Shown here: in pieces, positions 7,137-22,645 of the stretch
Layout: each line of letters opens with the position of its first letter
Position numbering within the stretch: the first letter of the stretch is position 1
From: Corallococcus macrosporus DSM 14697
GTDB taxonomy: Bacteria; Myxococcota; Myxococcia; Myxococcales; Myxococcaceae
Length of the DNA stretch: 64,000 nucleotides
Reading direction: 5' to 3'
Assembly: GCF_002305895.1 (NCBI RefSeq)
Contig: NZ_CP022203.1
Location: forward strand, 3,946,501 to 4,010,500
Translations under genes and position numbers: made by a program
Notes under the pieces: generated by a model
Database searches by the model: none
What the model was told of the DNA's origin: nothing
The model's input: only the letters and a program-made list of their open reading frames with translations

Positions 7137-7811
7137 GTGAAGGGTCTGATTGGCAAGAAGATCGGCATGACCCAGGTGTTCAACGATGAGGGCAACCTCG
7201 TCCCGGTCACGGTGATCGACGTAGGCACGTGCCAGGTCGTTGGCAAGCGCACCCCGGAGAAGGACAAGTACTCCGCGGTGACCATTGGGTTTGGTGAGAT
7301 CCGCGAGAAGATTCTCAACCTGGCCGAGCGGGGCTTCTTCAAGAAGGCCAACGCGCCTTACCGCCGCCACCTGAAGGAGTTCCGCGTCACGCCGGAGGAG
7401 GCTGCCTCCTTCAACGTGGGCGACGCCGTCAAGGCGGACATGTTCTCCAAGGGCGAGCTGGTGGACGTCACGGGCGTCACCAAGGGCCGCGGTTTCTCCG
7501 GCGTCATGCGCCGCTGGAACTTCAAGGGCTCGCAGACGAAGACGCACGGTACGCACGAGTACCAGCGTCACCCGGGCGCCATCGGTCAGCGCAAGACGCC
7601 GGGCCGCGTGTACCCGAACAAGAAGATGCCCGGTCACTACGGCGTGGAGCAGGTCACCACCCAGAACCTGACCGTGGTGGACGTGGACGTGGAGAAGGGC
7701 CTGGTGCTCGTGAAGGGCGCCGTCGCCGGCCACAGGGACGGCGTCGTCTACATCCGCCCCTCCATCAAGGCGGCCATGCGCGCGCAGCACAAGGCCGCGC
7801 GCGGCGCGTAG
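7137..7811 (+). CDS. rplC: 50S ribosomal protein L3
   Basis: The product has 224 residues, slightly longer than the usual 205-215. It begins MKGLIGKKIGMTQVF, the canonical L3 N-terminus, and carries the L3 core (GVTKGRGFSGVMRRWNFKG and GSIGQR-like GAIGQRKTPGRVYPNKKMPG). It binds 23S rRNA and the long loop reaches towards the peptidyl-transferase centre. The start is GTG at 7137. Normally rplC lies between rpsJ and rplD in the S10 operon; here no other ribosomal protein gene is adjacent and the gene is bounded by its own promoter and terminator. Confidence 0.96.
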   Translation: MKGLIGKKIGMTQVFNDEGNLVPVTVIDVGTCQVVGKRTPEKDKYSAVTIGFGEIREKILNLAERGFFKKANAPYRRHLKEFRVTPEEAASFNVGDAVKADMFSKGELVDVTGVTKGRGFSGVMRRWNFKGSQTKTHGTHEYQRHPGAIGQRKTPGRVYPNKKMPGHYGVEQVTTQNLTVVDVDVEKGLVLVKGAVAGHRDGVVYIRPSIKAAMRAQHKAARGA

Positions 7812-7838
7812 TCCGCTGCTGAGCGTCTGACGCTCGAA

Positions 7839-7893
7839 ACGCCCCGCCTCCGGGCCCGACTCGTCGGGCATCCGGGCGGGGCGTTCGTCTTTG
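7839..7893 (+). terminator. Rho-independent terminator of rplC
   Basis: ACGCCCCGCC (7839-7848) pairs perfectly with GGCGGGGCGT (7875-7884), with a smaller CCCGAC/GTCGGG hairpin inside the loop, followed by TTCGTCTTT. It lies 28 bp after the rplC stop. Confidence 0.85.
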
Positions 7894-8202
7894 CGGGGCA
7901 GGGTGCCGTGCGGTTTCCGTGGGTGGGCAGGTGTCTGCCCCGCGTGACGACCCGGCTGCCTGCTTCATCACGTCCCGTGCCACCGCGTGCCCCGGAAACG
8001 TTGACCGGTGGGCGTCCGGTGGGGGCGACCGTGAAAAGAATTCCGACGCTTGGCCATCTCCGGCTTGTCGGTCGTGGAAGCCGTGCGCACATCCAGGCCC
8101 CACAAAGGAGTCAGAAGCGTCAGGTGACGCGGAACTCCGTGGCTGGCGGGAGCCCCTGTTGCTCCCGCTCATGGCGGCCCACCCCACGGGCCGGGCAGGA
8201 TT
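7894..8202. other. Non-coding stretch upstream of the nfs-like cluster
   Basis: About 300 bp between the rplC terminator and the first barrel gene. Short open frames here show no protein-like composition. It presumably holds the promoter of the cluster, but I could not identify convincing -35/-10 elements; a weak sigma-54-like match is discussed under rejected items. Confidence 0.5.
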
Positions 8203-9024
8203 ATGATCGCACGCACGCTCTGCGTCTTCGCTTCGTTGGCCGTCTCGTTGGCGGCGCCGGTCGCCGCGGCACAGGACGATGAGAACGTCCTGGACAAGGT
8301 CGTCGTCCGCAACCGGCTGTACGAGCCGGGCGGCAAGCTGGAGGTGTCCCTGGGGGTGGGTCTGCCGCTGCAGACGCGCCTGACGGCGCACTACGTCTTC
8401 AACGCCGGCGTGGCCTTCAACCTCTTCAACACCTTCGCGGTGGAGGCGCGGGCGGGCTATGCGGCCAGCCGTCACACGGGCCTGGCGCGCTCCATCTCCG
8501 AGAGCTTCCTCAACCGCGAGGACAAGCGCGTCACCGACGAGCTGGAAGACCTCTGGCAGATGAACCTGCACGGGGTGGCCGGTGTCCGCTGGGCGCCCAT
8601 CTACGGGAAGCTCAGCCTGCTGTCGGACCTGCCGGCCCACTTCCAGGCCTACGTCTGGGCCGGCGGCGGCCTGGGCTCCTTCGAGCGCCGGTCCGTCATC
8701 CAGTGCGCGCAGGTGGTGAACCGCGAGCTGGGCATCTGTGACAACCGGACGTCGGTGGATGATCGCGGCTCGGCCTCCCAGGACTACTGGGTGAGGGAGT
8801 CGCGGGTGGCCCCGGTGGTGTCCGCGGCGGTGGGCTTCCGCTTCTTCATCCGGAACAACCACGGCGTGCGCCTGGAGCTGCGCGACTGGGTCTTCCGGGA
8901 CAACTACCGCGTCAACCTGTCGCGCGACGCGTGGGAGGCGGGGCAGGCGACGGGTGAGCCCGCGCGCAGTCCTGGCCTCACGCACCTGGTGCAGTTCGAC
9001 CTTGGCTACACCTTCTCCTTCTAG
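8203..9024 (+). CDS. nfsA: Outer-membrane beta-barrel protein, NfsA/GltA-like
   Basis: The 273-residue product has a signal peptide ending at VAAAQ (about residue 23) and then alternating amphipathic strands (LEVSLGVGLPLQ, TAHYVFNAGVAFNLF, AVEARAGYAAS) and ends in the aromatic C-terminal strand VQFDLGYTFSF typical of outer-membrane barrels. WAPIYGKLSLLSDLPAHF is also present in closely related form (TPLYGKFAFLNNSLAQF) in the next gene, showing that the two are related. In the Nfs/Glt systems A and B are paired outer-membrane proteins. Assignment as A rests on order and paralogy with gene B. Confidence 0.72.
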   Translation: MIARTLCVFASLAVSLAAPVAAAQDDENVLDKVVVRNRLYEPGGKLEVSLGVGLPLQTRLTAHYVFNAGVAFNLFNTFAVEARAGYAASRHTGLARSISESFLNREDKRVTDELEDLWQMNLHGVAGVRWAPIYGKLSLLSDLPAHFQAYVWAGGGLGSFERRSVIQCAQVVNRELGICDNRTSVDDRGSASQDYWVRESRVAPVVSAAVGFRFFIRNNHGVRLELRDWVFRDNYRVNLSRDAWEAGQATGEPARSPGLTHLVQFDLGYTFSF

Positions 9025-9036
9025 GTCCACCTGACT

Positions 9037-10362
9037 ATGCGACCGTTCCTGTCCCTCGCGCTCCTTGTCGCCACGGCCCCGCAGGCCGCGCCGCGCGTCC
9101 CGGCGCCGGCCTTCGCGCTGGCCCAGGTCCAGCAAGTGCCCGCGCCCGGTGCGGAGACGTCCGTGCCGCCGGCCGAGCAGCCCCAGTCGCCTCCGGAGGC
9201 CCCGGTGGGCCCCGCGTCCCGGCCGGAGCCGCTGGTGCCCGCGGAGGCCACCGAAGCCGCCGCGCCGCCCGCGGGCGTCCGCGCTGCTCCGGCGTCCGAG
9301 CCCGCCGCCGACGAGGCGCCCGTTGGCGAGCCCGCCAACCTTGATGAAGCCGACCCGGCGCCTGCCGCCGACACCGCGCCCACCGTGGAGTCGCCCGGCG
9401 CTCCCGCGGACACGGGCCTGGCGGGGCAGGAGGCGCCGCCCGCTCCGGACGACGCGCCGGTGCTGGCGTCCGACCTGGGCTCCGACGCGCCGCGCACCAC
9501 GGACGTCCAGCAGCAGCGGCTGGTGCACGGGGCGCCGCTCTACAACCCGAACGTGTCGGTGCACATCGTCCAGAAGAAGCGCTTCGCGGACGAGGGCCGT
9601 CACGAGCTGACGCTGTACCCGGCCACGGTGCAGGTGAACGGCAAGTACACCAACCACGCGGGCACGGCGGCGCACTACACCTACCACCTGCAGGAGAACT
9701 TCGCCCTCCAGGTGATGGGCCAGTACAACTGGTACTCGAACGAGAGCGGCTTCAACCTGGAGCTCATCGACAAGGTGCGTGAGCAGGCGCAGGCGGCCTC
9801 GTCGCTGCTGCTGGTGTGGGGCGCGCACGCGGGCGTGGAGGTCACCCCGCTCTACGGCAAGTTCGCCTTCCTCAACAACTCGCTGGCGCAGTTCAGCGTG
9901 GTGCTCAGCGGCGGCGCCGGCATCGGCTCCACGCGCCACCTCATCCGGCCGGCGGTGACGAACGAGGTGGAGGGCGAGGCGTTCCGGGTGCCCGCGCGCT
10001 TCGGCGACACCGGCACCAAGTTCCTCGGCTCGGTGGGTGGCGGCTTCCGGCTCCAGTTCGGTGAGTCGTACGCGCTGCGCGTGGAGGTGAGGGACCTCAT
10101 TTATACCGCGCGGGTGGACCGGGTGGACGGCTGCAACCTGGCGGACTTCGAGGCGCTGGAAGCGGCGCGCGCCACCAACCAGGACTTCTCCACGCTGAAC
10201 CTGAGCGGGAGCTGCCGCTACGAGAAGTTCGACGGCGTCGACCCGAAGACGCGGAAGAACTACCGCGAGGACATCATCCTGGGCCGTGACCTGGTGGCCG
10301 AGCCGTCCTCCGACGTCCTCAACAACGTGAGCTTCTACGCCGGCTTCTCTGTCCTCTTCTGA
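9037..10362 (+). CDS. nfsB: Outer-membrane beta-barrel protein with Pro/Ala-rich linker, NfsB/GltB-like
   Basis: The 441-residue product has a signal peptide, then about 140 residues of Pro, Ala and Glu-rich low complexity (residues 15-150), then a barrel domain that starts around LVHGAPLYNPNVSVHIV and ends at VSFYAGFSVLF. The linker is probably a periplasmic tether. TPLYGKFAFLNNSLAQF matches the equivalent segment of the preceding gene. It follows nfsA by 12 bp, with no strong ribosome site visible, so its translation may depend on nfsA. Identification as B follows order and paralogy. Confidence 0.72.
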   Translation: MRPFLSLALLVATAPQAAPRVPAPAFALAQVQQVPAPGAETSVPPAEQPQSPPEAPVGPASRPEPLVPAEATEAAAPPAGVRAAPASEPAADEAPVGEPANLDEADPAPAADTAPTVESPGAPADTGLAGQEAPPAPDDAPVLASDLGSDAPRTTDVQQQRLVHGAPLYNPNVSVHIVQKKRFADEGRHELTLYPATVQVNGKYTNHAGTAAHYTYHLQENFALQVMGQYNWYSNESGFNLELIDKVREQAQAASSLLLVWGAHAGVEVTPLYGKFAFLNNSLAQFSVVLSGGAGIGSTRHLIRPAVTNEVEGEAFRVPARFGDTGTKFLGSVGGGFRLQFGESYALRVEVRDLIYTARVDRVDGCNLADFEALEAARATNQDFSTLNLSGSCRYEKFDGVDPKTRKNYREDIILGRDLVAEPSSDVLNNVSFYAGFSVLF

Positions 10363-10385
10363 CGCACAGGAAGGCCCGAACCGCC

Positions 10386-11924
10386 ATGAAACGACTGCTC
10401 AGCCTCTTCGTCGCCCTGGCGCCGCTCGCGGTGACCGCCCAGCCGGACCCGGGCGGCTACAACCGCGCGCTGGCCGCCTTCAACGCCGGTGACATGGACA
10501 CCGCCGCGCCCCTCTTCTTCGAACTGGCGGAGAAGGCCTCCGACGCGGAGGTGAAGGGCAAGGCGGAGTACTTCCTCGGACAGGCGCTGGCCCAGAAGGG
10601 CCTGCCCGTCGCCGCCTTCATCACCTATGCGGCCATCGTCAACGCCGGGCCCTCCCACCCCTCCTACCTCAAGGCGGTGGAGGGGCTGGTGGACATGCAG
10701 CAGCAGCTGGACGAGCACAACCTCATCCCCAGCATCCTCAACCAAGCCTACACCGACGAGGTGCGAGATCGCTGGGTGACGCTGCCCAAGGAAGTGCTCG
10801 CGCGCATCAACTACCTGGTGGGCACGGTGAGCCAGCGCAAGAGCCGCTTCGAGGAGGCGCGCGCGCTGCTGGAGGCGGTGCCCCAGGACAGCCGCGTGTA
10901 CGCGAAGGCGCGCTACCTGCTGGGCGTGGTGCTGGCGGACCCGCGCTTCCCGGGCCGTCCAGGCGAGGCCTCCGTGCTGGACAAGGACGCGCTGGCCGCC
11001 TTCAACGCGGTGCTGGCCGCGAAGGAGGGGCAGTTGGACTTGCGCGCCACGCAGCACCTGGCGCTCATCGCCCTGGGCCGGCTCCACTACCGCCGCGGCG
11101 AGTACGCCGACGCCAGCGCCGCGTATGAGCGGGTGCCGCGCTACTCGCGCTACTGGGACCAGGCGCTCTTCGAGAACGGCTTCGCGCGCTTCCAGAACGA
11201 GGACTTCGGCGGGGCGCTCGGCAGCCTCCAGGCCCTGCACGCGCCGCAGTTCGAGGGCGCCTTCCAGCCCGAGTCGTGGATCCTCAAGGCGACCGTCTAT
11301 TACTACTCGTGCCTCTACGACGAGGTGAAGACCACGCTGGCGGCCTTCGACGCGCTGTACGGCCCCATGGAGCAGCAGCTCGAGCCCTTCACCGGCGAGG
11401 ACGTGCCGCTGGTGCAGTCCTACAACCTGGTGGCGGCGGAGAACCGCCGGCTGCCGCGCCCGGTGTACCTGTGGCTGCGCAACAACGAGCGCATCCGCGA
11501 GGTGATGCGGATGCTGGAGCGCGTGGACAACGAGAAGCGCGCGCTCATCAATGGACAGTGGCGTGGCACGGCGCTTGCGGCGCAGACCACCGCGTCGCTG
11601 GAGGACGTGCGCGGCACGCTGCTCCAGGTGGGTGGGACGCTGGCGCAGAGCCGCATCCGTGAGGCAGCGGACAATCTGCGGACCTTCTCCGACCAGGCGG
11701 AAATCATCCGCGTCCAGACGGCATTGGATGAAAAGGATTTGCTGCAGGCCGGCGTGGACCAGAAGGCGCTGCTGAAGCGGCAGTCGCTGTATCGCCCGAA
11801 GATGCCGGGCGCGGCCTGGAACTACTGGAAGTTCCAGGGCGAGTTCTGGATCGATGAGATTGGTTATTACCAATACACGCTGAAGCGCGGCTGCCCGGCC
11901 AAGACGGCTGAACAGCAGCCGTAG
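10386..11924 (+). CDS. nfsC: Secreted TPR-repeat protein, NfsC/GltC-like
   Basis: The 512-residue product has a signal peptide ending near TAQPDPG and helical repeats of the TPR type across most of the protein (for example YNRALAAFNAGDMDTAAPLF and GRLHYRRGEYADASAAYERV). The C-terminus contains a distinct aromatic motif (AAWNYWKFQGEFWIDEIGYY). GltC/NfsC are periplasmic TPR proteins that bridge membrane partners. AGGAAGG precedes the ATG. A strong hairpin lies after its stop. Confidence 0.75.
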   Translation: MKRLLSLFVALAPLAVTAQPDPGGYNRALAAFNAGDMDTAAPLFFELAEKASDAEVKGKAEYFLGQALAQKGLPVAAFITYAAIVNAGPSHPSYLKAVEGLVDMQQQLDEHNLIPSILNQAYTDEVRDRWVTLPKEVLARINYLVGTVSQRKSRFEEARALLEAVPQDSRVYAKARYLLGVVLADPRFPGRPGEASVLDKDALAAFNAVLAAKEGQLDLRATQHLALIALGRLHYRRGEYADASAAYERVPRYSRYWDQALFENGFARFQNEDFGGALGSLQALHAPQFEGAFQPESWILKATVYYYSCLYDEVKTTLAAFDALYGPMEQQLEPFTGEDVPLVQSYNLVAAENRRLPRPVYLWLRNNERIREVMRMLERVDNEKRALINGQWRGTALAAQTTASLEDVRGTLLQVGGTLAQSRIREAADNLRTFSDQAEIIRVQTALDEKDLLQAGVDQKALLKRQSLYRPKMPGAAWNYWKFQGEFWIDEIGYYQYTLKRGCPAKTAEQQP

Positions 11925-11959
11925 GAACACAGGCGCGGTTGTCACCCATGTTCGTACCC

Positions 11960-12012
11960 TGGAGGGGCCGGCTCCGCGCGCGCTGCGTGGATGCGGCCCC
12001 TCCATCGTTGTT
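11960..12012 (+). terminator. Hairpin between nfsC and nfsD, possible terminator or attenuator
   Basis: TGGAGGGGCCG (11960-11970) and CGGCCCCTCCA (11994-12004) form 11 perfect base pairs around a 23-nt loop, followed by TCGTTGTT. The tail is only moderately U-rich, so termination may be partial. A TTGACA hexamer starts at 12011, immediately after it. Confidence 0.5.
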
Positions 12013-12039
12013 GACAGCGCGCAAGCCCCGTTCCTCCGC

Positions 12040-12059
12040 CACTTCTCAATCCAGAAGTG
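12040..12059. repeat. 7-bp inverted repeat upstream of nfsD
   Basis: CACTTCT (12040-12046) and AGAAGTG (12053-12059) are separated by 6 bp. The symmetry and 13-bp centre spacing fit a dimeric regulator site; it lies downstream of the TTGACA hexamer at 12011-12016 and 80 bp before the nfsD start. Confidence 0.35.
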
Positions 12060-12138
12060 CGCATCTACTTTCCGTCGTCCCTCGTCAGTGGGTGCTGGAT
12101 TGCCCGCATGCCGGGTCGGCTTCACGGCAGGAGCTCGC

Positions 12139-15100
12139 ATGAAGGTGGTTCTTCGTTTCGGTGCGCTGGCGGTGGGCGCGGTGCTCATCACTGGCGGGGT
12201 GGGAGAGGCGGCGGAAACGCAGGCCCGTAAGGGGGGGAAGAAGCCCGCCGCGGCGTCCGCGTCGAAGACCTCGGGGGCGTCCGGCAACAAGGCGGGCGGG
12301 AAGAAGAAGGCCCAGGCGGCCCGCAAGGCCGAGGAGAAGGCACCGCCCCCGGGCGTGGCCCCCGAGGACGTGCGCCAGGGCCCCGCGCGCGTCCGGCCCG
12401 CCACGGCGAAGTTCGCGGAGCTGCCGCGCATCCCCGACGCGAAGCGGGACGCGCTGGCGGACAAGAAGCGCGACGAGGCCATCGAGGCCTTCAAGCGCCT
12501 CATCCCCAAGCTGCGCGACGGCAACCCGCAGAAGGCGGAGATGCTCTACCGCCTGTCGGAGCTCTACTGGGAGAAGTCCAAGTACCTCTACCAGCTCGAG
12601 ATGACGCGCTTCCTCGCGGAGGAGAAGGAGTACGACGCGGCCGTGGCGCGCGGCGAGAAGGTGGCGGCGCCCAAGCAGGACCACACGGGCAGCGAGCGCT
12701 ACCGCGCCGAGACGATGGGCCTCTACGAGGACATCCTCCGCGCGTACCCGGACTATCCGCAGCGCGACGAGGTCCTCTTCTCCATGGGCTACAACTACTA
12801 CGAGCTGGGGCGCCGCGAGGACGCGGTGGCCCGCTACGAGGAGTTGATCCGCGACTTCCCCCAGTCGCAGTTCGTGCCGGACGCGTACATCCAGCTCGGC
12901 AACCACTACTTCGAGAACAACAAGCTCATCCCCGCCAAGCAGAACTACGAGAAGGCGCGGGACTCGGGCGTGCCCAAGATCTACGCCTACGCCGTCTACA
13001 AGCTGTCCTGGTGTGACTACAACACCGGCGACTACGAGCCGGGCCTCCAGAAGCTCCACGAGGTGGTGGACTACGCGGCGAAGAGCCCGGAGCTGGGTGA
13101 CCTGCGCACCGAGGCGCTCAACGACCTGCCCGTCTTCTACGTCCAGTTGGACCAGCCGAAGCAGGCCATCGCCTACTTCAAGCAGAAGGCCCCGGCGCAG
13201 CGCGTGGGCCGGCTGCTGGCCAAGACGGCCGCGGGCCTGGTGGAGGCGGGCCACTTCGACAGCGCCATCCTCACCTACCGCACGCTCGTGGACGACGACC
13301 CCATGGGCGCCAACGCGCCGGAGTACCAGCAGGCCATCGTCCGCGCGCACGAAGGGCTCCGCCAGCGCCAGGTGGTCCGCAAGGAGATGAAGCGGATGGT
13401 GGACCTCTACAGCCCCGGTGGCGCGTGGTGGAAGGCCAACGAGGGGAAGACCACCGTCCTGCGCAACGCCTTCAACGTCACCGAAGAGGCGATGCGCGTC
13501 ATGGTCACCGAGTACCACCAGGAGGCGCAGAAGACGCGCCAGGTGGAGACGTACCGGCTGGCGCGAGACATCTACAGGCAGTATGTGAATGCGTTCGCCT
13601 CCAACGCGAACCCGGACTTCGTGGCGGACTCCGCCTTCAACCTCCGCTTCTTCTACGCGGAGATCCTCTGGGCGCTGGAGGAGTGGGAGGCGGCCGCGGC
13701 CGAGTACGACGCCGTGGTGGCCTTCAAGATTCCGGACCGCGACACGGCGCGCGAGGTCTCCAACGAGTCCTACCGCAAGAGCGCCGCGTACAACGCCATC
13801 CTCGCCTACGACAAGCTGGTGAAGATCGAGCGCGGCCAGCTCGCCAGGAGCGACCTGCGCGACGGCCAGAAGGTCGACGAGAAGAAGGACAAGGGCGACG
13901 TCGCCAGGCAGAAGATCGTCAAGCGCGACGCCAAGGACCGCCAGGAGGAGCCGCTCACGAAGTTCGAGGACCGGCTGGTCGCCGCGTGCGACGTCTACGT
14001 GAAGCTGTATCCGGACACGCAGGATGAAATCGACCTGCGCTACCAGGCCGCCGTCATCCTCTACGACCGCAGCCACTTCGTGGACGCGGCCCGGCGCTTC
14101 GGCGAAATCATCGAGAAGTTCCCCGAGGAGCGCCGCTCCCGCGACGCGGCCGACCTCACCATGTACGTGCTGGAGAGCCGCGAGGAGTGGCTGGAGCTGA
14201 ACACGCTGTCGAGGAAGTTCCTGGCGAACAAGAAGCTGGCCAGGCCGGGGACGGACTTCGCCGTGCGCGTCAGCCGCGTCGTCGAAGGCAGCCAGTACAA
14301 GTGGGTGGACGAGATCATCTACAAGAAGGAGAAGAACCCGAAGAAGGCCGCCGAGGAGTTCCTCCGCTTCGTGTCCGAGTTCCCCAAGTCGGAGAACGCG
14401 GACCGCGCGCTCACCTACGCGATGGTCATCGCGCAGGAGGCGGGGGAGATCGACAAGGGCCTGGCCGCGGGCGAGCGCTTCCTCAAGGAGTACCCGCGCA
14501 GCCCCTTCGAGCTGAAGGCGCGCTACTCGCTGGCCGGCCTCTACGAGAAGGTCGCCGAGTACCGGAAGGCCGCTGTCATGGCGGAGTCCTTCGTGGCCAG
14601 CTACGACGCCGCGCTGAAGGCGGCCAACGCCGGCGGGAAGTCCAAGGCGGGCGCCAAGGCGAACGTCGCCCCGGGCGCCGAGGACGCGGAGTCCAAGCGT
14701 GAGCGGCTGGCCGCCGAGCGCAAGGCGCTGCTGGACGAGGCGGGCGGCTGGGTGGCGGACGCGCAGTTCAACGCGGGCGTCTGGTGGGAAGGCGCGGGGG
14801 AGCCGCAGAAGGCCGTGGCCGCCTACAACGCCTACGTGTCCCGCTTCAGGGACCGCAAGGACGTGCCGCAGGTGGCCTTCGCGGCGGCGCTCGCGTGGGA
14901 GAAGGAGAAGAAGTGGAGCGAGGCGGCCCGGGCCTTCGGCCACTTCGCGGAGACGTATGGCCGTGACTCGCGCTCCAGCTCCGCGCAGGTGTACCTGGCG
15001 CGCTACCACGAGCTGCTGGCGTACGAGCAGCTCAAGAACACGCGCGAGCAGGAGCGCGTGCAGGCCGAGCTGGTGCGGGCGTGGAACCGCCTGCCGGAGA

Positions 15101-15750
15101 GCGCGCGCAAGGACGCGGCGGTGCTCAACGCCTACGGCCACGCGCGCTTCCTGTCGCTGGAGCCCGCGTGGAAGCGCTACACGGGCATCCGCTTCTCGCG
15201 GGTGAGCACCATCCGCCGGGACCTGGCGGCGAAGCAGAAGGAGATTCAACGGCTGGAGAAGGCGTACCTCGCGGTGCTGTCCACCGGCTCCGGTGACTGG
15301 GGCATCGCGGCGCTCACGCGCATCGGCCTGGCCTACGCGGACTTCGCGCGCAACATCATGGACTCGCCGGACCCGTCCGGGCTCGACGAGGAGCAGCTCG
15401 CCATGTACCGCGGCGAGCTGGAGAACCTGGCGCTGCCGCTGGAGGACAAGGCCGCCGAGGCCCTGGAGAAGGCGCTGGAGAAGGCCTACGAGCTGGGCGT
15501 CTACAGCCCGTGGACGCTGACGGCGCAGGACCAGGTGAACCGCCTGCGCCCCGGGGCCTACGCGCAGGTGCGGCAGGTGGACTACCGCGGCAGTGACACG
15601 CTCGTCCGGTCGGACCTGGTGCGCGTGCTGGAGGGCGCCACCGCGACCACGCCGGCGCCGGCCTCCGCGCCGGAGGACCCGCGGGCGCCGAAGTCCTCGG
15701 AAGGCGAGGCGCAGGCCCCCACGGCCGCGCGCGGGGAGGTGCTGCGATGA
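12139..15750 (+). CDS. nfsD: Large secreted TPR-repeat protein, NfsD/GltD-like
   Basis: From ATG 12139 (AGGAG 6 nt before) the product has 1203 residues: a signal peptide (VLITGGVGEAAET), a Lys/Ala-rich segment (KGGKKPAAASASK), then TPR-like helical hairpins to the end (for example ILRAYPDYPQRDEVLFSMGY and DSAILTYRTLVDDDP). It has a Pro/Ala-rich tail. GltD (AgmU) and NfsD are the very large TPR proteins of the family, and the length fits. Stop and nfsE start overlap as ATGA. An earlier GTG at 12088 has no ribosome site. Confidence 0.8.
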   Translation: MKVVLRFGALAVGAVLITGGVGEAAETQARKGGKKPAAASASKTSGASGNKAGGKKKAQAARKAEEKAPPPGVAPEDVRQGPARVRPATAKFAELPRIPDAKRDALADKKRDEAIEAFKRLIPKLRDGNPQKAEMLYRLSELYWEKSKYLYQLEMTRFLAEEKEYDAAVARGEKVAAPKQDHTGSERYRAETMGLYEDILRAYPDYPQRDEVLFSMGYNYYELGRREDAVARYEELIRDFPQSQFVPDAYIQLGNHYFENNKLIPAKQNYEKARDSGVPKIYAYAVYKLSWCDYNTGDYEPGLQKLHEVVDYAAKSPELGDLRTEALNDLPVFYVQLDQPKQAIAYFKQKAPAQRVGRLLAKTAAGLVEAGHFDSAILTYRTLVDDDPMGANAPEYQQAIVRAHEGLRQRQVVRKEMKRMVDLYSPGGAWWKANEGKTTVLRNAFNVTEEAMRVMVTEYHQEAQKTRQVETYRLARDIYRQYVNAFASNANPDFVADSAFNLRFFYAEILWALEEWEAAAAEYDAVVAFKIPDRDTAREVSNESYRKSAAYNAILAYDKLVKIERGQLARSDLRDGQKVDEKKDKGDVARQKIVKRDAKDRQEEPLTKFEDRLVAACDVYVKLYPDTQDEIDLRYQAAVILYDRSHFVDAARRFGEIIEKFPEERRSRDAADLTMYVLESREEWLELNTLSRKFLANKKLARPGTDFAVRVSRVVEGSQYKWVDEIIYKKEKNPKKAAEEFLRFVSEFPKSENADRALTYAMVIAQEAGEIDKGLAAGERFLKEYPRSPFELKARYSLAGLYEKVAEYRKAAVMAESFVASYDAALKAANAGGKSKAGAKANVAPGAEDAESKRERLAAERKALLDEAGGWVADAQFNAGVWWEGAGEPQKAVAAYNAYVSRFRDRKDVPQVAFAAALAWEKEKKWSEAARAFGHFAETYGRDSRSSSAQVYLARYHELLAYEQLKNTREQERVQAELVRAWNRLPESARKDAAVLNAYGHARFLSLEPAWKRYTGIRFSRVSTIRRDLAAKQKEIQRLEKAYLAVLSTGSGDWGIAALTRIGLAYADFARNIMDSPDPSGLDEEQLAMYRGELENLALPLEDKAAEALEKALEKAYELGVYSPWTLTAQDQVNRLRPGAYAQVRQVDYRGSDTLVRSDLVRVLEGATATTPAPASAPEDPRAPKSSEGEAQAPTAARGEVLR

Positions 15751-17246
15751 AGGGGAAGACGCAGATGAACTGGTTCCGTTCGCTCCTCGTCGGCTCGCTG
15801 GCCTTCACGGCGGCGTGCGCGTCGGGGCCTCAGAAGAAGCAGACCGCCATGCCGGAGGCGACGCCGCCCGCGGCGCGGCAGCCCGCGCCGGAGCAGCAGC
15901 CGGCGCCGTCTCCGGAGAAGACGGACGGCGACGCGGAGGCCGCCTTCGCGGCGGCGCTCCAGGCCTACGAGGCGGGCGACCTGGACGGCGCGCGCAAGGG
16001 CTTCGAGGCGGTGGTGGACGTGCTGCCGCAGAGCCTCAACGCGCAGTTCAACCTGGGCGTCATCGCCGAGCGCCAGGGCCAGCCTGACGACGCGCGCGTG
16101 GCCTATGAGAAGGTGCTGCTGTTGGATCCGGCGCACGTGCCCGCGGTGGTCAACCTGGGCGTCATGTACCGGGAGCAGGGACGGCTGGATGAAGCCATCG
16201 CGCTGTTCGAGCGGGCGCTGAAGACGCCCGGCCGCGAATACGACGCGTCGCTGCTCAACAGCCTGTCCATCACCTACCGCGTCGCCGGGAAGCTGGACGC
16301 GTCCGAGGACGCGGCCCGCCGCGTGCTGGTGCGCAACAAGGACAACCCGGGCGCGTACAAGAACCTGGCGCACGTGGCCTACGCGCGGGAGAAGTACCGG
16401 CTGGCGGAGCTGCTGGCCGGCACCGCGCGCAAGCACGCGGAGAACGACCCGGCGCTCCACAACCTGCTGGGCATGGTCTACCTGAAGCTGGAGGACCGCC
16501 CCCGCGCGCTGGTGAACTTCCAGAAGGCCGTGGCCCTGGATGCGAAGTTCGCTCCGGGCTACCTCAACCTGGGCGCGCTGGCCCTGGCCTACCGTGACTA
16601 CGCGGGCGCCGAGCGCTCCTTCGGCAAGGCCGTGGAGCTGGAGCCGGGCTCGCCGGACGCGGCGCTGTACCTGGCCTGGGCGCTGGACGGACAGAAGGGG
16701 CGCGATCCGAAGAAGGGCCTGGCCGCGGGTGAGGCCTTCGAGAAGGTGCTCGCCACGCGCGCGGACCTCCCCGAGGCCGTGTGCGGCGCGGGCTGGGCCT
16801 ACGCGTCGGACCGCGCGGGCTGGGAGAAGGCCATCGCGTTCCTCGACCGCTGCAAGGGGCTCGAGACGACGACGGACACCGACAAGCAGATGATCACGGC
16901 CAAGGTGCAGGGCCTGCAGAGCATGCTCAAGGCCGCGCCGCCCGAGGCCGCGCCCGCCACCGCGGAGGGTGAAGGCGAGGGCGCTCCGGCGGATGAGGCC
17001 ATTGGCGGCGGTGGCGCGCAGCCCGCGCAGGGCTCCGAGGGCGCGCAGCCCGAAGCGGGCGCGGAAGGAGACGCCACGGGCGGCGCGGGTTCGCAGCCTG
17101 GGCAGGGCGCGGCTGATGCGACGGAGGGCGATGCCTCGGACGGCGTGGGCACCCAGCCCGCGCAGGGCTCGGGCACTGCTCCCAGTGGGGAAGGAACGCC
17201 CGCGGGCAACGGCGTTCAGTCTGCTCCCGGCGCCACGGGCCGGTGA
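15747..17246 (+). CDS. nfsE: TPR-repeat lipoprotein, NfsE/GltE-like
   Basis: The 499-residue product starts with KGKTQMNWFRSLLVGSLA and a weak lipobox (FTAAC, Cys at about residue 25), so it is probably a lipoprotein. TPR repeats cover about residues 60-390 (for example LNAQFNLGVIAERQGQPDDA and PAVVNLGVMYREQGRLDEA), followed by a Gly/Ala/Glu-rich tail with repeated GxQPAQGS-like units. GltE/NfsE are outer-membrane-associated TPR lipoproteins. The start overlaps the nfsD stop (ATGA). A perfect terminator follows, 55 bp after the stop. Confidence 0.8.
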   Translation: MKGKTQMNWFRSLLVGSLAFTAACASGPQKKQTAMPEATPPAARQPAPEQQPAPSPEKTDGDAEAAFAAALQAYEAGDLDGARKGFEAVVDVLPQSLNAQFNLGVIAERQGQPDDARVAYEKVLLLDPAHVPAVVNLGVMYREQGRLDEAIALFERALKTPGREYDASLLNSLSITYRVAGKLDASEDAARRVLVRNKDNPGAYKNLAHVAYAREKYRLAELLAGTARKHAENDPALHNLLGMVYLKLEDRPRALVNFQKAVALDAKFAPGYLNLGALALAYRDYAGAERSFGKAVELEPGSPDAALYLAWALDGQKGRDPKKGLAAGEAFEKVLATRADLPEAVCGAGWAYASDRAGWEKAIAFLDRCKGLETTTDTDKQMITAKVQGLQSMLKAAPPEAAPATAEGEGEGAPADEAIGGGGAQPAQGSEGAQPEAGAEGDATGGAGSQPGQGAADATEGDASDGVGTQPAQGSGTAPSGEGTPAGNGVQSAPGATGR

Positions 17247-17301
17247 GGCGGGCGCCGCGCTCCTCGGGCGTGTCGTCGTTCAATTCAGGCGCGGGAACCG
17301 T

Positions 17302-17337
17302 CGGCGTTGCCACTCATTGAAGTGGCAACGCCGTTTT
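17302..17337 (+). terminator. Strong Rho-independent terminator after nfsE
   Basis: CGGCGTTGCCACT (17302-17314) pairs perfectly over 13 bp with AGTGGCAACGCCG (17321-17333), with a 6-nt loop and a TTTT tail. It should end most transcripts before nfsF. The remaining 231 bp up to nfsF show no clear -35/-10 pair, though a new promoter is expected there. Confidence 0.85.
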
Positions 17338-17568
17338 CGCGACACGGGTGGGGGCGGGCCCTCCGACACGCATGGCGCCCGTCAGCCTGGTGGGCGGGGC
17401 CAGGTTGGACAGACACCCGAGGCCTCACCCTGGCGGACAGGCTGGAGTTCTGACGAAGCGGGACGGAACTTTTTTCCCCTCTCCAGGCTGCAACACCCGG
17501 TTGGGCAGGCAGGCTCCTCTGGATTCAAGGACTTGAAGTTGGATCGCGCTGTGCAAGGGAGGTTGAGC

Positions 17569-17853
17569 ATGAGGCGACTGGTATCAGCGGTGGTGGTGCT
17601 GGGCCTGTGGGCGGCACCCTCGGTGGCAGTGGCGCAGGAGTCACGCGACACGGTGAAGATCATCCAGGAGGAGGACCGCACCGTCTTCCGGAAGAAGACG
17701 GTCATCGACTTCACGGACGTCGCGGTGGAGGGCGAGCTCACGAAGCCGGAGGGCTCGTACGTGCTCCACCGGAAGAAGACGGACTTCCAGAGCCTCATCA
17801 AGGTCCGGGACAACTTCGATCCAGAGTTGCAGAAGTCAGTCGACAACCTCTAG
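17569..17853 (+). CDS. nfsF: Small secreted protein, NfsF/GltF-like
   Basis: The 94-residue product starts at ATG 17569 after AAGGGAGG. A signal peptide (residues 1-22, VVVLGLWAAPSVAVAQ) is followed by a charged periplasmic domain (EEDRTVFRKKTVIDFTDVAV ... ELTKPEGSYVLHRKKTDFQS). Length, location and position between E and G fit NfsF/GltF, a small periplasmic component. A related motif, inferred only from this sequence, is a basic KK dipeptide flanked by FxxxT, repeated twice. The frame remains open upstream, but earlier starts lack a ribosome site. Confidence 0.7.
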   Translation: MRRLVSAVVVLGLWAAPSVAVAQESRDTVKIIQEEDRTVFRKKTVIDFTDVAVEGELTKPEGSYVLHRKKTDFQSLIKVRDNFDPELQKSVDNL

Positions 17854-17908
17854 CGGCAGCGGGCGGCGGCAGTCGTTCTCAGGGCGGAAGGGAAGAGGGA
17901 AAATCCTC

Positions 17909-19951
17909 ATGGCGGCGGCGAAGAACAACGGCTTGACGCTTCGGATCACCGGGCCGGATGGCTCCACGGCGGAAGCCGTGTCGGAGGCCGAGAGCGTCAT
18001 TGTGGGGTCGGGCGCTCAGGCAGCGGTGAAGATTCAGGACCCGAAGGTCTCGAATCTCCATGTGATGCTGAAGGTGGACAAGGATGGCTCCGTCACGGCC
18101 ATCGACCTTGGGAGTGAAGGCGGCACGGAGGTGCGGGGACAGCGGCTCGTCCTCCCCACGGCGCTCAACCCCGGGGATGTGTTGACGGTGGGCGGCAGCC
18201 GGGTGGAGGTCCTCTTCGGGGCGGGCCAGCCCCAGCGGCCGCTCCCCGCGGGCGCGCGCGTGGCGGGCCCGGTGTTCCAGGGGCCGGTGGCCACGCCACC
18301 GCCGCCGCCGCGTGGCCTGCAGGCGCAGACGCGCGCGGAGCCGCCGAACCTGGTGCCCGCGCCGCCGCCGCCCATGCGGCAGGTGTCCACGGCGCTGGGC
18401 AACCGCGTGGAGCGGGTGGCGTCACCCGGCGCGATCCCCGTCGAGCCGCCCCCGCGGCAGGCGCCTCCGGGCCTCCAGCCCCGGTCGACGCCCTCCTCGG
18501 CGCGGACGCCCACGCAGAACACGGCGAACACGGCCACGGCGCGGCGGACGGTGGCGCCCCACCTCCAGGAGCCGCTGCCTCCCGAGGCCATGCCCACGCC
18601 CGAGGCGCGCGTCCTCCAGGTCGCGCTGCTGTGGGGCGACACCATGCTGGAGGTCCAGCACTTCAAGGACGGCGTGCCCGTCACCATCGGCGAGGCGAAG
18701 AAGAACTTCTTCAACGTCTTCACGCCGTCGGTGGGCAAGCGCCACGTGCTGGCCGTCAGCAAGAAGGACGCGCTGGAGGTCCGCGCGCCGGCGGGCTCGC
18801 GCGCCTTCGTCACCAACCGGGGCCACGTGCGCACCAAGGACGCGCTGCGGGCCGCGGGCGCGCTCTCCGGCCAGGTCGGTGAGGACGCCGAGCAGCGCTT
18901 CACCCTGGGCCTGCATGACCGGGTGGAGGTGTCGCTGGGCACGGTGTCCTTCGTCGCGCGCTACGTGAAGCCGTCTCCGGTCATCACCGCCGCGTCGCTG
19001 AAGGACTCCGACTTCACGTTCTTCAAGATCACCAGCATCTGCATGCTGGCGGGCCTGGCGGTGGTGCTGGCCATGGTGCTGACGCCGCGCCAGGAGCTGC
19101 CGCAGAGCGCCGACATCTTCGAGTCCCAGCAGCGGGTGGCCAAGCTCCTCATCACCCCGCAGAAGAAGCTGGAGGCGAAGAAGCTCCAGCTCTCCGCGCC
19201 GGAGGAGGGCGCCAAGGCGAAGGACGAGGAGGGCAAGTTCGGCAAGGAGGAGGCGAAGCAGAAGGAGGCGGCGCCCTCCAAGCCCGGCACGCCGGTGGTG
19301 GACAAGAGCAAGAAGGAGAAGGACCGTCAGGCGGTGGGCAAGGCCGGCCTGCTGGGCGCCTTCAAGGGCATGAAGGGTGGGGCGTCGGACGTGTTCGGCC
19401 CCGGCGGCTTCGGCACCGGCATCAACGACGCGCTGGGCGGCCTCAAGGGCGGCGCGGCCATGGGTGACGCGCAGGGCGTGGGGGGCCTGGGCTCGCGTGG
19501 CACCGGCAAGGGCGGCGGCGGCACGGCGCTGGGCATCGGTGGCCTCGGGACGCAGGGCACTGGCCGTGGCACGGGCGGGTCGGGCGGCATCGACCTGGGC
19601 GGCCGTGGCAAGTCCATCACCAAGGTCATCCCCGGCAAGACGACGGTGGTGGGCGGCCTGGACAAGGACGTCATCGCCAAGGTCATCCGGCGGCACCAGG
19701 GGGAGATCAAGTACTGCTACGAGTCGGAGCTGAACAAGGACCCGAGCCTCGCCGGCAAGGTGGCGGTGGCCTTCGTCATCGACCCGACGGGCGCGGTGTC
19801 CGACGCGAGTGTCTCCGAGACGACGCTGAACAACGCCGCGGCGGAGCGCTGCATGCTGTCCCGAATCCGCCGCTGGAAGTTCCCGGAGCCCAAGGGCGGC
19901 GGCGTGGTGTCCGTGACGTATCCCTGGCTCTTCTCGCCCGCGGGCGGGTGA
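17909..19951 (+). CDS. nfsG: FHA-domain TonB-like transducer, NfsG/GltG-like
   Basis: The 680-residue product is built in five parts: an FHA domain (about residues 10-105, with VSNLHVMLKVDKDG and LNPGDVLTVGGSRVEVLFG), a Pro-rich linker (110-230), a second soluble domain (235-350), one membrane helix (about 371-392, SICMLAGLAVVLAMVL), and a periplasmic part with a Lys/Glu-rich coil, a Gly-rich segment (485-560) and a C-terminal AgmX/PglI-type TonB-like domain (VIRRHQGEIKYCYESELN to VSVTYPWLFS). This is the architecture of GltG/NfsG, which links cytoplasmic signalling to the periplasm. A terminator follows. Confidence 0.85.
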   Translation: MAAAKNNGLTLRITGPDGSTAEAVSEAESVIVGSGAQAAVKIQDPKVSNLHVMLKVDKDGSVTAIDLGSEGGTEVRGQRLVLPTALNPGDVLTVGGSRVEVLFGAGQPQRPLPAGARVAGPVFQGPVATPPPPPRGLQAQTRAEPPNLVPAPPPPMRQVSTALGNRVERVASPGAIPVEPPPRQAPPGLQPRSTPSSARTPTQNTANTATARRTVAPHLQEPLPPEAMPTPEARVLQVALLWGDTMLEVQHFKDGVPVTIGEAKKNFFNVFTPSVGKRHVLAVSKKDALEVRAPAGSRAFVTNRGHVRTKDALRAAGALSGQVGEDAEQRFTLGLHDRVEVSLGTVSFVARYVKPSPVITAASLKDSDFTFFKITSICMLAGLAVVLAMVLTPRQELPQSADIFESQQRVAKLLITPQKKLEAKKLQLSAPEEGAKAKDEEGKFGKEEAKQKEAAPSKPGTPVVDKSKKEKDRQAVGKAGLLGAFKGMKGGASDVFGPGGFGTGINDALGGLKGGAAMGDAQGVGGLGSRGTGKGGGGTALGIGGLGTQGTGRGTGGSGGIDLGGRGKSITKVIPGKTTVVGGLDKDVIAKVIRRHQGEIKYCYESELNKDPSLAGKVAVAFVIDPTGAVSDASVSETTLNNAAAERCMLSRIRRWKFPEPKGGGVVSVTYPWLFSPAGG

Positions 19952-19980
19952 GCGGCGGTAGCGGGCCCTGAAGCACCCGG

Positions 19981-20019
19981 AGTGGCGTGGACGCAACGGT
20001 CCACGCCACTTTCGTTTTT
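19981..20019 (+). terminator. Rho-independent terminator after nfsG
   Basis: AGTGGCGTGGAC (19981-19992) pairs with GTCCACGCCACT (19999-20010) over 12 bp with a 6-nt loop, then TTCGTTTTT. nfsH therefore probably has its own promoter in the 90 bp that follow, or depends on read-through. Confidence 0.85.
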
Positions 20020-20106
20020 CCCCCCACTGCCGGTTCCGCGGGGGCGTCATTAACGTCTGCGCCGCTCCCGCGTTGAGCCGGGAGGGCACGTCTGTCGGGA
20101 GGACCT

Positions 20107-20709
20107 GTGAAGAAGTCTCAGCTCATTGCCGCGCTCGCGCTGCTGTCGTCTCCGGTCCTCGCGGCCACACCGCCGGAAGGGGTGGCGTTCGAACCGCGCC
20201 GGGGCTTCTTCACCGAGACGGACATCGGCGTGTTCTTCACCGTGGGCGGGGAGAACGTCTACTCCAACGCGCAGACGTACCTGCAGCTCGGCGTGGGGTA
20301 CGACCTCACGGAGACGCTGTCGCTGGGGGCGCACTTCGGGCTCGGCTCGTCCGCGCAGAACTGCTTCGCGGGCTACCTGCCGGGCACGGAGACGTGCGCG
20401 CTCTCCGACAACTTCACCATGGCCTTCTTCAACGCGTCCGTGGCCTACCACGTGCGCGTCATGGACCGGCTCTTCCTCACGCCCAAGGTGGTGGCGGGCT
20501 ACACGCGCCTGGACCCGGCGCCCGTGAACCCCGGCGAGGGCGACCCGGGACGCGCCGTCAGCGCGCCCAACGCGGGCCTGGGCTTCGGCGTGGAGTACGC
20601 CACCGGCATGGACCACTTCTCCGTCGGCGCGGACCTGCTGGCCCGCTACATCATCGGGCCCAACATCACGTCCTTCGCCGTGTTCCCGAAGGTGAAGTAC
20701 ACCTTCTGA
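20107..20709 (+). CDS. nfsH: Outer-membrane beta-barrel protein, NfsH/GltH-like
   Basis: The 200-residue product starts at GTG 20107 and has a signal peptide (KKSQLIAALALLSSPVLAAT) and a short barrel with strands such as TDIGVFFTVGGENV, YLQLGVGYDLTETLSLGAHFG, and the terminal FAVFPKVKYTF with C-terminal Phe. Its position at the end of the A-H row fits NfsH/GltH. It could equally be classed with CglE-like gliding-motility barrels, which share the fold. It is convergent with typA. Confidence 0.68.
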   Translation: MKKSQLIAALALLSSPVLAATPPEGVAFEPRRGFFTETDIGVFFTVGGENVYSNAQTYLQLGVGYDLTETLSLGAHFGLGSSAQNCFAGYLPGTETCALSDNFTMAFFNASVAYHVRVMDRLFLTPKVVAGYTRLDPAPVNPGEGDPGRAVSAPNAGLGFGVEYATGMDHFSVGADLLARYIIGPNITSFAVFPKVKYTF

Positions 20710-20725
20710 AGCCCGCATACACGAA

Positions 20726-20757
20726 GGGCCCGCCCCCGACAGCGTGGGAGCGGGCCC
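20726..20757. terminator. Hairpin between convergent nfsH and typA, possible terminator
   Basis: GGGCCCGC (20726-20733) and GCGGGCCC (20750-20757) form an 8-bp stem around 16 nt. No T-run follows on either strand, so it may only slow polymerase. Confidence 0.3.
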
Positions 20758-20797
20758 GGGTGCGGCGGGGCGCGTCGAAGCGCCCGCCCGGCAGTGG

Positions 20798-22645
20798 CTA
20801 CTCGCCCTCGGCCGCGCGCTCCTCGCGCTTGCGGTCACGCTCGGCGCGGTAGCGCTCGCCCACCGCCAGCGCCTTCTTGCGCATGCGGATGGACTTGGGC
20901 GTCACCTCGACCAGCTCGTCATCGGCGATCCACTCCAGCGCCTTCTCCAGGCCCATCTCACGCGGCGGCGTGAGGATGACGTTCTCGTCGCGGCCCGAGG
21001 CGCGGATGTTGGTGAGCTTCTTCTCGCGGCAGCAGTTCACGTTCAGCTCGGACGCGTGCGAGTGCTCGCCGATGATCATTCCCTCGTACACCGTGGTGCC
21101 AGCGCCGATGAAGAGCTGGCCGCGCTCCTGGATGCTGAAGAGCGCGTAGGGCACGGTGTCGCCCAGGCGGTCGGAGACGATGGCGCCGTTCTGCCGCTTG
21201 GGGATGTAGCCGAACCACGGCTCGTAGCCGTCGAACTGGCTGCTCATGATGCCCTCGCCACGGGTGATGGTGAGGAACTCCGAGCGGAACCCGATGAGGC
21301 CGCGCGCCGGGATGCGGAACTGGAGCCGGGTGCGGCCCGAGCCCAGGCTGGCCATGTCCGTCATGCGGCCCTTGCGGGGCCCCAGGCGCTCCGTCACCGC
21401 GCCCACGCTGTTCTCCGGCACGTCGCAGAAGAGCAGCTCCATGGGCTCGTGGACCTGGCCGTCCACCTCCTTGGTGATCGGCTCCGGGTTGGAGGCGGTC
21501 AGCTCATAGCCCTCGCGGCGCATGTTCTCGATGATGACGGCCAGGGCGAGCTCGCCGCGGCCCACCACGCGGAACGCGTCGGGCGTCTCGGTGTCCTCCA
21601 CGCGCACGGCCACGTTGCGGTAGGCCTCGCGGTAGAGGCGCTCACGCAGGTTGCGGGAGGTGACGAACTTGCCTTCCTTGCCCGCCAGCGGCCCGTCGTT
21701 GACCTTGAAGATCATCATCATCGTGGGCTCGTCCACGGTGATGCGCGGCAGCGGCACCGGCTTCTCCGCGTCGGAGATGGTGTCGCCGATGGAGATCTCC
21801 TCGATGCCGGCGATGGAGACGATTTCACCCGGACCCGCGTCCGGAATCTCCACGCGCTTCAGGCCGGAGAAGCCGTACAGCTTGACGATCTTCCCCTGCT
21901 GCACCTTCCCGCCCTCGCGGCAGACGGCCACGGGCATGTTGGCGGTGATGCGGCCGGCCTGCACGCGGCCCACGGCCAGACGGCCGACGTAGTCGTCGTA
22001 GTCCAGGTTGGCGACGAGGAGCTGCAGCGACGTCTCGTCCGACTTCGGCGGCGGCGGGATGTGGTTGATGATGGCGTCGTACAGGGGCTCCAGCGTCTTG
22101 CCGGGCACGTCCAGGTCCGTGGACGCCTGACCCTGGCGGGCGATGGTGTAGAGGACGGGCATCTCCAACTGCTTATCGTCCGCGCCCAGGTCGATGTAGA
22201 GCGAGTACACCAGGTCCAGCACGTCCTTCGCGCGGGCGTCCTGGCGGTCGATCTTGTTGATGACCAGCACCGTCTTCAGGCCCATGGCCAGGGCCTTGCT
22301 CAGCACGAAGCGCGTCTGGGGCAGGGGACCTTCGGCGGCGTCCACCAGCAGGATGACGCCATCGACGAGGCGCAGACCGCGCTCCACCTCACCACCGAAG
22401 TCGGCGTGACCCGGGGTGTCGATGATGTTGATCTGCATGCCCTTGTAATTGACCGCGGTGTTCTTCGCGAGAATGGTGATGCCCTTCTCGCGCTCGAGGT
22501 CATTCGAGTCCATCACCCGTTCGGCGACGTGCTCGTTGGTACGGAAGGTGCCCGCCTGGCGGAGGAGGTGATCGACGAGCGTGGTCTTGCCATGGTCGAC
22601 GTGGGCGACGATGGCGACGTTACGGATGTTTTCGCGAGGAATCAT
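20798..22645 (-). CDS. typA: Translational GTPase TypA/BipA
   Basis: From the ATG at 22645 the product has 615 residues, the usual TypA length. G1 is [14 protein letters not shown], the switch region is [15 protein letters not shown]3 [12 protein letters not shown] and G4 NKIDRQDA. The C-terminal part has the TypA/EF-G-like domains ([19 protein letters not shown]). BipA binds the ribosome near the EF-G site and helps 50S assembly and stress translation. The frame continues to 22756 but homology starts at [16 protein letters not shown] promoter-like pair lies at 22728-22756. Confidence 0.96.

Follow-up and report, generated by a model that had tools for sequence, protein, structure and literature searches.

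The window, a stretch of 64,000 nucleotides corresponding to positions 3,946,501-4,010,500 of a complete 8.97 Mb genome, contains eight open reading frames (ORFs) at 8203-20709, nfsA-H, all on the forward strand and arranged in the order A-B-C-D-E-F-G-H (Table 1). Profiles and domain composition support these assignments: the A and B proteins both exceed the cut-off of the OMP_myx_plus profile, H exceeds that of CglE, domain profiles detect TPR repeats in D and E, and NfsG comprises an FHA domain (residues 30-95), a single strongly hydrophobic segment assigned as TM (374-392) and a TonB-like C-terminus (614-676). Against the Glt models, the C, E, F and G proteins score less than the curated cut-offs require, as would be expected of paralogues. 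ORFs, profiles and domains thus bear out the eight co-directional genes of the preliminary description, with its barrels, TPR proteins, small periplasmic protein and FHA/TM/TonB-like transducer, an architecture match that is far beyond chance.

Table 1. Features of the nfs locus, in window coordinates; identities are to the proteins of L036, a genome titled M. xanthus AM003.
Feature	Position	Strand	Description	Profile match	Identity to L036
Intergenic region upstream of nfsA	7812-8202	+	Presumed promoter region; conserved in relatives		
nfsA	8203-9024	+	273 aa, signal peptide, outer-membrane barrel	TIGR04565, 189 bits	92%
nfsB	9037-10362	+	441 aa, Pro-rich linker and barrel	TIGR04565, 69.8 bits	88%
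nfsC	10386-11924	+	512 aa, TPR-like periplasmic protein	GltC model, 4.7e-62, 210.6 bits (curated cut-off 450)	96%
nfsD	12139-15750	+	1203 aa, TPR protein, ATG start		93%
nfsE	15747-17246	+	499 aa, TPR protein, lipoprotein-like N-terminus	GltE model, 7.8e-35, 120.6 bits (curated cut-off 225)	79%
nfsF	17569-17853	+	94 aa, small exported protein	CglF model, 9.6e-18, 64 bits (curated cut-off 90)	96%
nfsG	17909-19951	+	680 aa, FHA/TM/TonB-like transducer; NfsG clade	Domain matches; GltG model, 8.4e-104, 348.4 bits (curated cut-off 650)	
nfsG-nfsH terminator-like hairpin	19979-20012	+	Shared with relatives; compensatory change in one of them		
nfsH	20107-20709	+	200 aa, outer-membrane barrel	CglE model, 212.7 bits (cut-off 70)	96%

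Two alternative starts were dismissed, a GTG at 12088 for nfsD and a TTG at 17563 for nfsF; the same alternatives were rejected in M. xanthus by Mueller et al. Downstream of nfsH lies typA, on the opposite strand. The gene directly upstream of nfsA, rplC (7137-7811), is the genome's sole Pfam match to ribosomal protein L3 and is located ~58 kb from its only rplD match.

In M. xanthus, 323 bp upstream of nfsA suffice in a published reporter, and two putative MrpC sites are found 5' of nfsA, with a third within nfsG. No sigma-70-like promoter was detected in 7800-20900, a search that is uninformative for a high-GC myxobacterium. The terminator-like hairpin between nfsG and nfsH, which is common to several Myxococcus, Corallococcus and Pyxidicoccus loci (the compensatory change being in L049), could attenuate nfsH. 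A strong hairpin with a T run is also present between nfsE and nfsF (about 17301-17332); it was dropped as a general feature, being absent in M. xanthus (L036) and found in only L037 among the loci checked.

Orthology and phylogeny

The eight genes almost certainly represent nfsA-H, the operon for a spore-coat envelope machine, in a Myxococcus closely related to M. xanthus. Their proteins are 79-96% identical to those of L036, versus 24-40% to the Glt proteins of their own genome. M. xanthus nfsA-H (MXAN_3371-3378; PMC2875238, PMC3858216) comprises the same eight genes in the same order and orientation, likewise followed by a gene on the opposite strand, and its published B-C, C-D and F-G intergenic distances (23, 214 and 55 bp) are identical to those in the window; the G-H gap is 155 bp, versus 152 in M. 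xanthus. The operon here differs from that of M. xanthus in the C-terminus of NfsE and in its E-F gap, whose length, 322 bp up to the ATG, exceeds that in M. xanthus by about 100 bp. When named genomes were scanned, those with the operon included members of Myxococcus, Corallococcus, Pyxidicoccus, Archangium and Hyalangium, among others. L037, a record titled Comamonas sp. KCTC 72670, also contains a Myxococcus nfs operon (NfsG 91%); the record is probably mistitled, or its assembly contaminated.

Phylogeny, based on quick trees with SH-aLRT support only, separates Nfs from Glt. In the GltG/NfsG tree (57 rows), 27 Nfs proteins form one clade (SH-aLRT 100) and 21 Glt proteins another (98), with the window protein grouping with M. 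xanthus and a congener; the positions of two further paralogues from its own genome, the long-branched G4 and G5, are not considered reliable. Nfs and Glt are split with support of 100/100 in both the D (35 rows) and H (27 rows) trees, which place the window proteins in the NfsD and NfsH clades, and a joint tree of the A and B barrels recovers an NfsA clade (96) and an NfsB clade (100). The profile and phylogeny comparison suggested by the preliminary description therefore places the D, G, H, A and B proteins inside Nfs rather than Glt clades; C, E and F were assigned to Nfs by best score only.

In the joint barrel tree, the Nfs barrels A and B cluster separately from the Glt ones, and the pairing of the barrels is not given by the tree alone. 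Profile comparison, however, favors A-A and B-B pairing (NfsA scores 216 against GltA and 135 against GltB; NfsB scores 173 against GltB and 150 against GltA), from which it follows that the barrel order is inverted: A-B-C in the window, but B-A-C in the glt genes of the same genome and in other glt clusters. This inversion stands against the maintained nfs/glt synteny described by Wartel et al. Of the earlier proposal that the genes match NfsA-H/GltA-H in order, the Nfs half holds and the Glt half is not exact.

Paralogous clusters, motor and exo genes in the same genome

Listing the other Glt/Nfs clusters of this genome, another check put forward in the preliminary description, revealed gltB-A-C at 2.95 Mb and gltD-H at 6.0 Mb, indicating that gliding has its own gene set, as well as two further clusters, one G5-like (1.57 Mb) and one G4-like (2.32 Mb) (L029, L030). 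The M. xanthus Glt complex (G1/G2; PMC3169522) has paralogous A-H components with the same domain plan as Nfs, whereas nothing among the eight nfs genes corresponds to GltI, GltJ or GltK. That all eight proteins have Glt homologues and that NfsH passes the CglE cut-off speaks for the cluster being the organism's gliding machine, a reading that is nonetheless highly improbable, given the trees, the separate gltB-A-C and gltD-H loci, and the scores of the C, E, F and G proteins below the Glt cut-offs. The assignment to Nfs rather than Glt is upheld by the trees, the identity to M. xanthus, the intergenic distances and the separate glt set.

The G4 and G5 clusters raise the alternative that the window harbors a third, uncharacterized Glt-like paralogue with a role in neither motility nor spores. 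Both have homologues of nfsC, nfsD, nfsE and nfsG (G4 also of nfsF), but they are far more divergent, and G4 yielded no match to barrels A, B or H. As they form separate loci with long branches outside the Nfs clade, and as the operon in the window is nearly identical to, and orthologous with, M. xanthus nfs, this alternative is the least probable of those considered.

Consistent with the preliminary description, none of the 552 window ORFs is a homologue of AglR, AglQ, AglS or the second motor, in a search whose positive control worked; the stretches carrying nfs, glt and G4 likewise yielded no motor genes. The AglRQS motor is encoded at 8.15 Mb (L031), with proteins of 245, 162 and 194 aa, sizes as in M. 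xanthus, and AglQ Asp28 present; a second motor is found at 3.54 Mb. A candidate exo operon at 3.81 Mb starts with an OPX protein of 190 aa, the published length of ExoA, and continues with Wzz, kinase-like, sugar-transferase and GNAT genes; its candidate ExoF ORF, which has an untypical codon-position composition, was not relied on.

The preliminary description had reasoned that glt genes are spread over separate clusters, and that contiguity therefore favors Nfs over gliding. The first statement holds for this genome, with its two glt loci, but not for families f5, f7 and f9 of the order, in which contiguous glt clusters (B-A-C-D-E-F-G, most also with H) are found; a similar cluster in f6 is cut off by the end of the stretch examined. 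Because contiguous glt clusters occur in these other families, Nfs and Glt cannot be told apart by contiguity, and the argument built on it is unsound. The accompanying view that sporulation and gliding cannot be told apart was fair for the window alone; orthology, using the genome and its relatives, does decide between them.

Predicted function

Gene identity and orthology are established here; what follows on mechanism and expression is transferred from experiments published for M. xanthus. In that species, nfsA-H most likely form a single transcription unit, induced in sporulation, and their deletion blocks the formation of viable spores, leaving single-cell motility and gliding unimpaired. 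AglR binds to NfsG. Driven by the Agl motor and the proton-motive force, foci of NfsD circle the spore along with the coat polymer, moving only when the motor is working.

By orthology, we infer that the operon encodes a sporulation-induced envelope complex that AglRQS moves and that wraps the Exo polymer to form the spore coat. The products would form a transducer spanning the envelope and paralogous to the Glt complex of gliding; within it, inner-membrane NfsG would couple during sporulation to the proton-driven AglRQS motor encoded elsewhere. The periplasmic TPR proteins NfsC-E, together with NfsF, would transmit force to the outer-membrane barrels NfsA, NfsB and NfsH, which would travel along the spore surface, wrapping exported Exo polysaccharide into a compact coat.

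Distribution of nfs and exo across the order

An NfsB profile, run over 107 genomes of the order with strong matches defined as E below 1e-60, gave a bimodal result: strong matches were found in 71 of the 74 genomes of the window's own family and, f5 excluded, in 15 of 16 genomes of other families. None of the 17 f5 genomes had a strong match (best about 2e-18, the level of Glt barrels), and several have contiguous glt clusters; nfs is apparently absent from, or was lost in, this family. Since both nfs and glt are present in families f1, f3, f6, f7 and f9, their duplication looks older than these families, and older than the "recent duplication" proposed by Wartel et al., although later transfer between families is a possible alternative.

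At a threshold of 1e-10, ExoB was not found in ten own-family genomes with strong nfsB (G038, G042, G060, G074, G080, G086, G087, G089, G093, G100), and full-length ExoE was likewise missing from these ten, with transferase-domain or partial matches only. Two of the exo-negative genomes contain complete or near-complete nfs clusters (L092, L095), and in several more distant families ExoB and ExoE are both still present. These observations provide a lead that ten genomes, mostly draft assemblies scored for two exo genes, may keep nfs without the known spore-coat polymer genes. They favor a reading in which Nfs acts in spores beyond the Exo polymer, or on another polymer in other lineages. This reading is rather unlikely: many of the assemblies are in many contigs, one of the two exo genes tested encodes a divergent barrel, and a different exo-like operon may substitute. 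Wrapping of an Exo coat may thus not be a universal role of Nfs, but the window's own genome does have exo.

Polysaccharide export genes adjacent to G4

In the region L030:6871-18992 (about 2.321-2.333 Mb), the G4 cluster of the same genome has the order C-D-E-F-G. Located 3' of it, in the same direction, are genes encoding a cyclic-nucleotide-binding protein and a 203 aa protein, followed by wzpB and wzaB. The identity of wzaB, described as orphan-like by Islam et al., is based on there being three OPX genes, of which the other two occupy exo and EPS-type positions, and on M. xanthus numbering (1915, 1916, 1922); among the papers listed by a literature search, none names both MXAN_1922 and wzaB.

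Among 16 related G4 stretches, wzpB follows G4 in 14, 12 of these with wzaB in view; of the remaining two, one reached the contig end and one had neither gene. This co-direction and conservation suggest that G4 may be functionally linked to the export of biosurfactant polysaccharide (BPS) via wzpB-wzaB. A 1555 aa ORF (L118:1261-5928) separates the G4 G gene from the gene for the 203 aa protein in one f5 genome. The neighbors of G5 encode no domain hinting at a role.

Discussion

The locus is already known from M. xanthus and extends a well-studied system by a further genome; it is itself ordinary, and its relatives are more informative. Comparison with them removes contiguity as a criterion for distinguishing Nfs from Glt, and would move the Nfs/Glt duplication back past the "recent duplication" of the literature. 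A broader proposal, which we consider tentative and somewhat doubtful, is that Glt/Nfs-like transducers constitute a polysaccharide-handling family that split before the families of the order, with Glt acting on slime, Nfs on the spore polymer (or another polymer in lineages without exo) and G4 on biosurfactant polysaccharide. Lineages that may carry nfs without exo, together with a putatively BPS-linked G4, would offer natural tests of what motor-driven transducers move.
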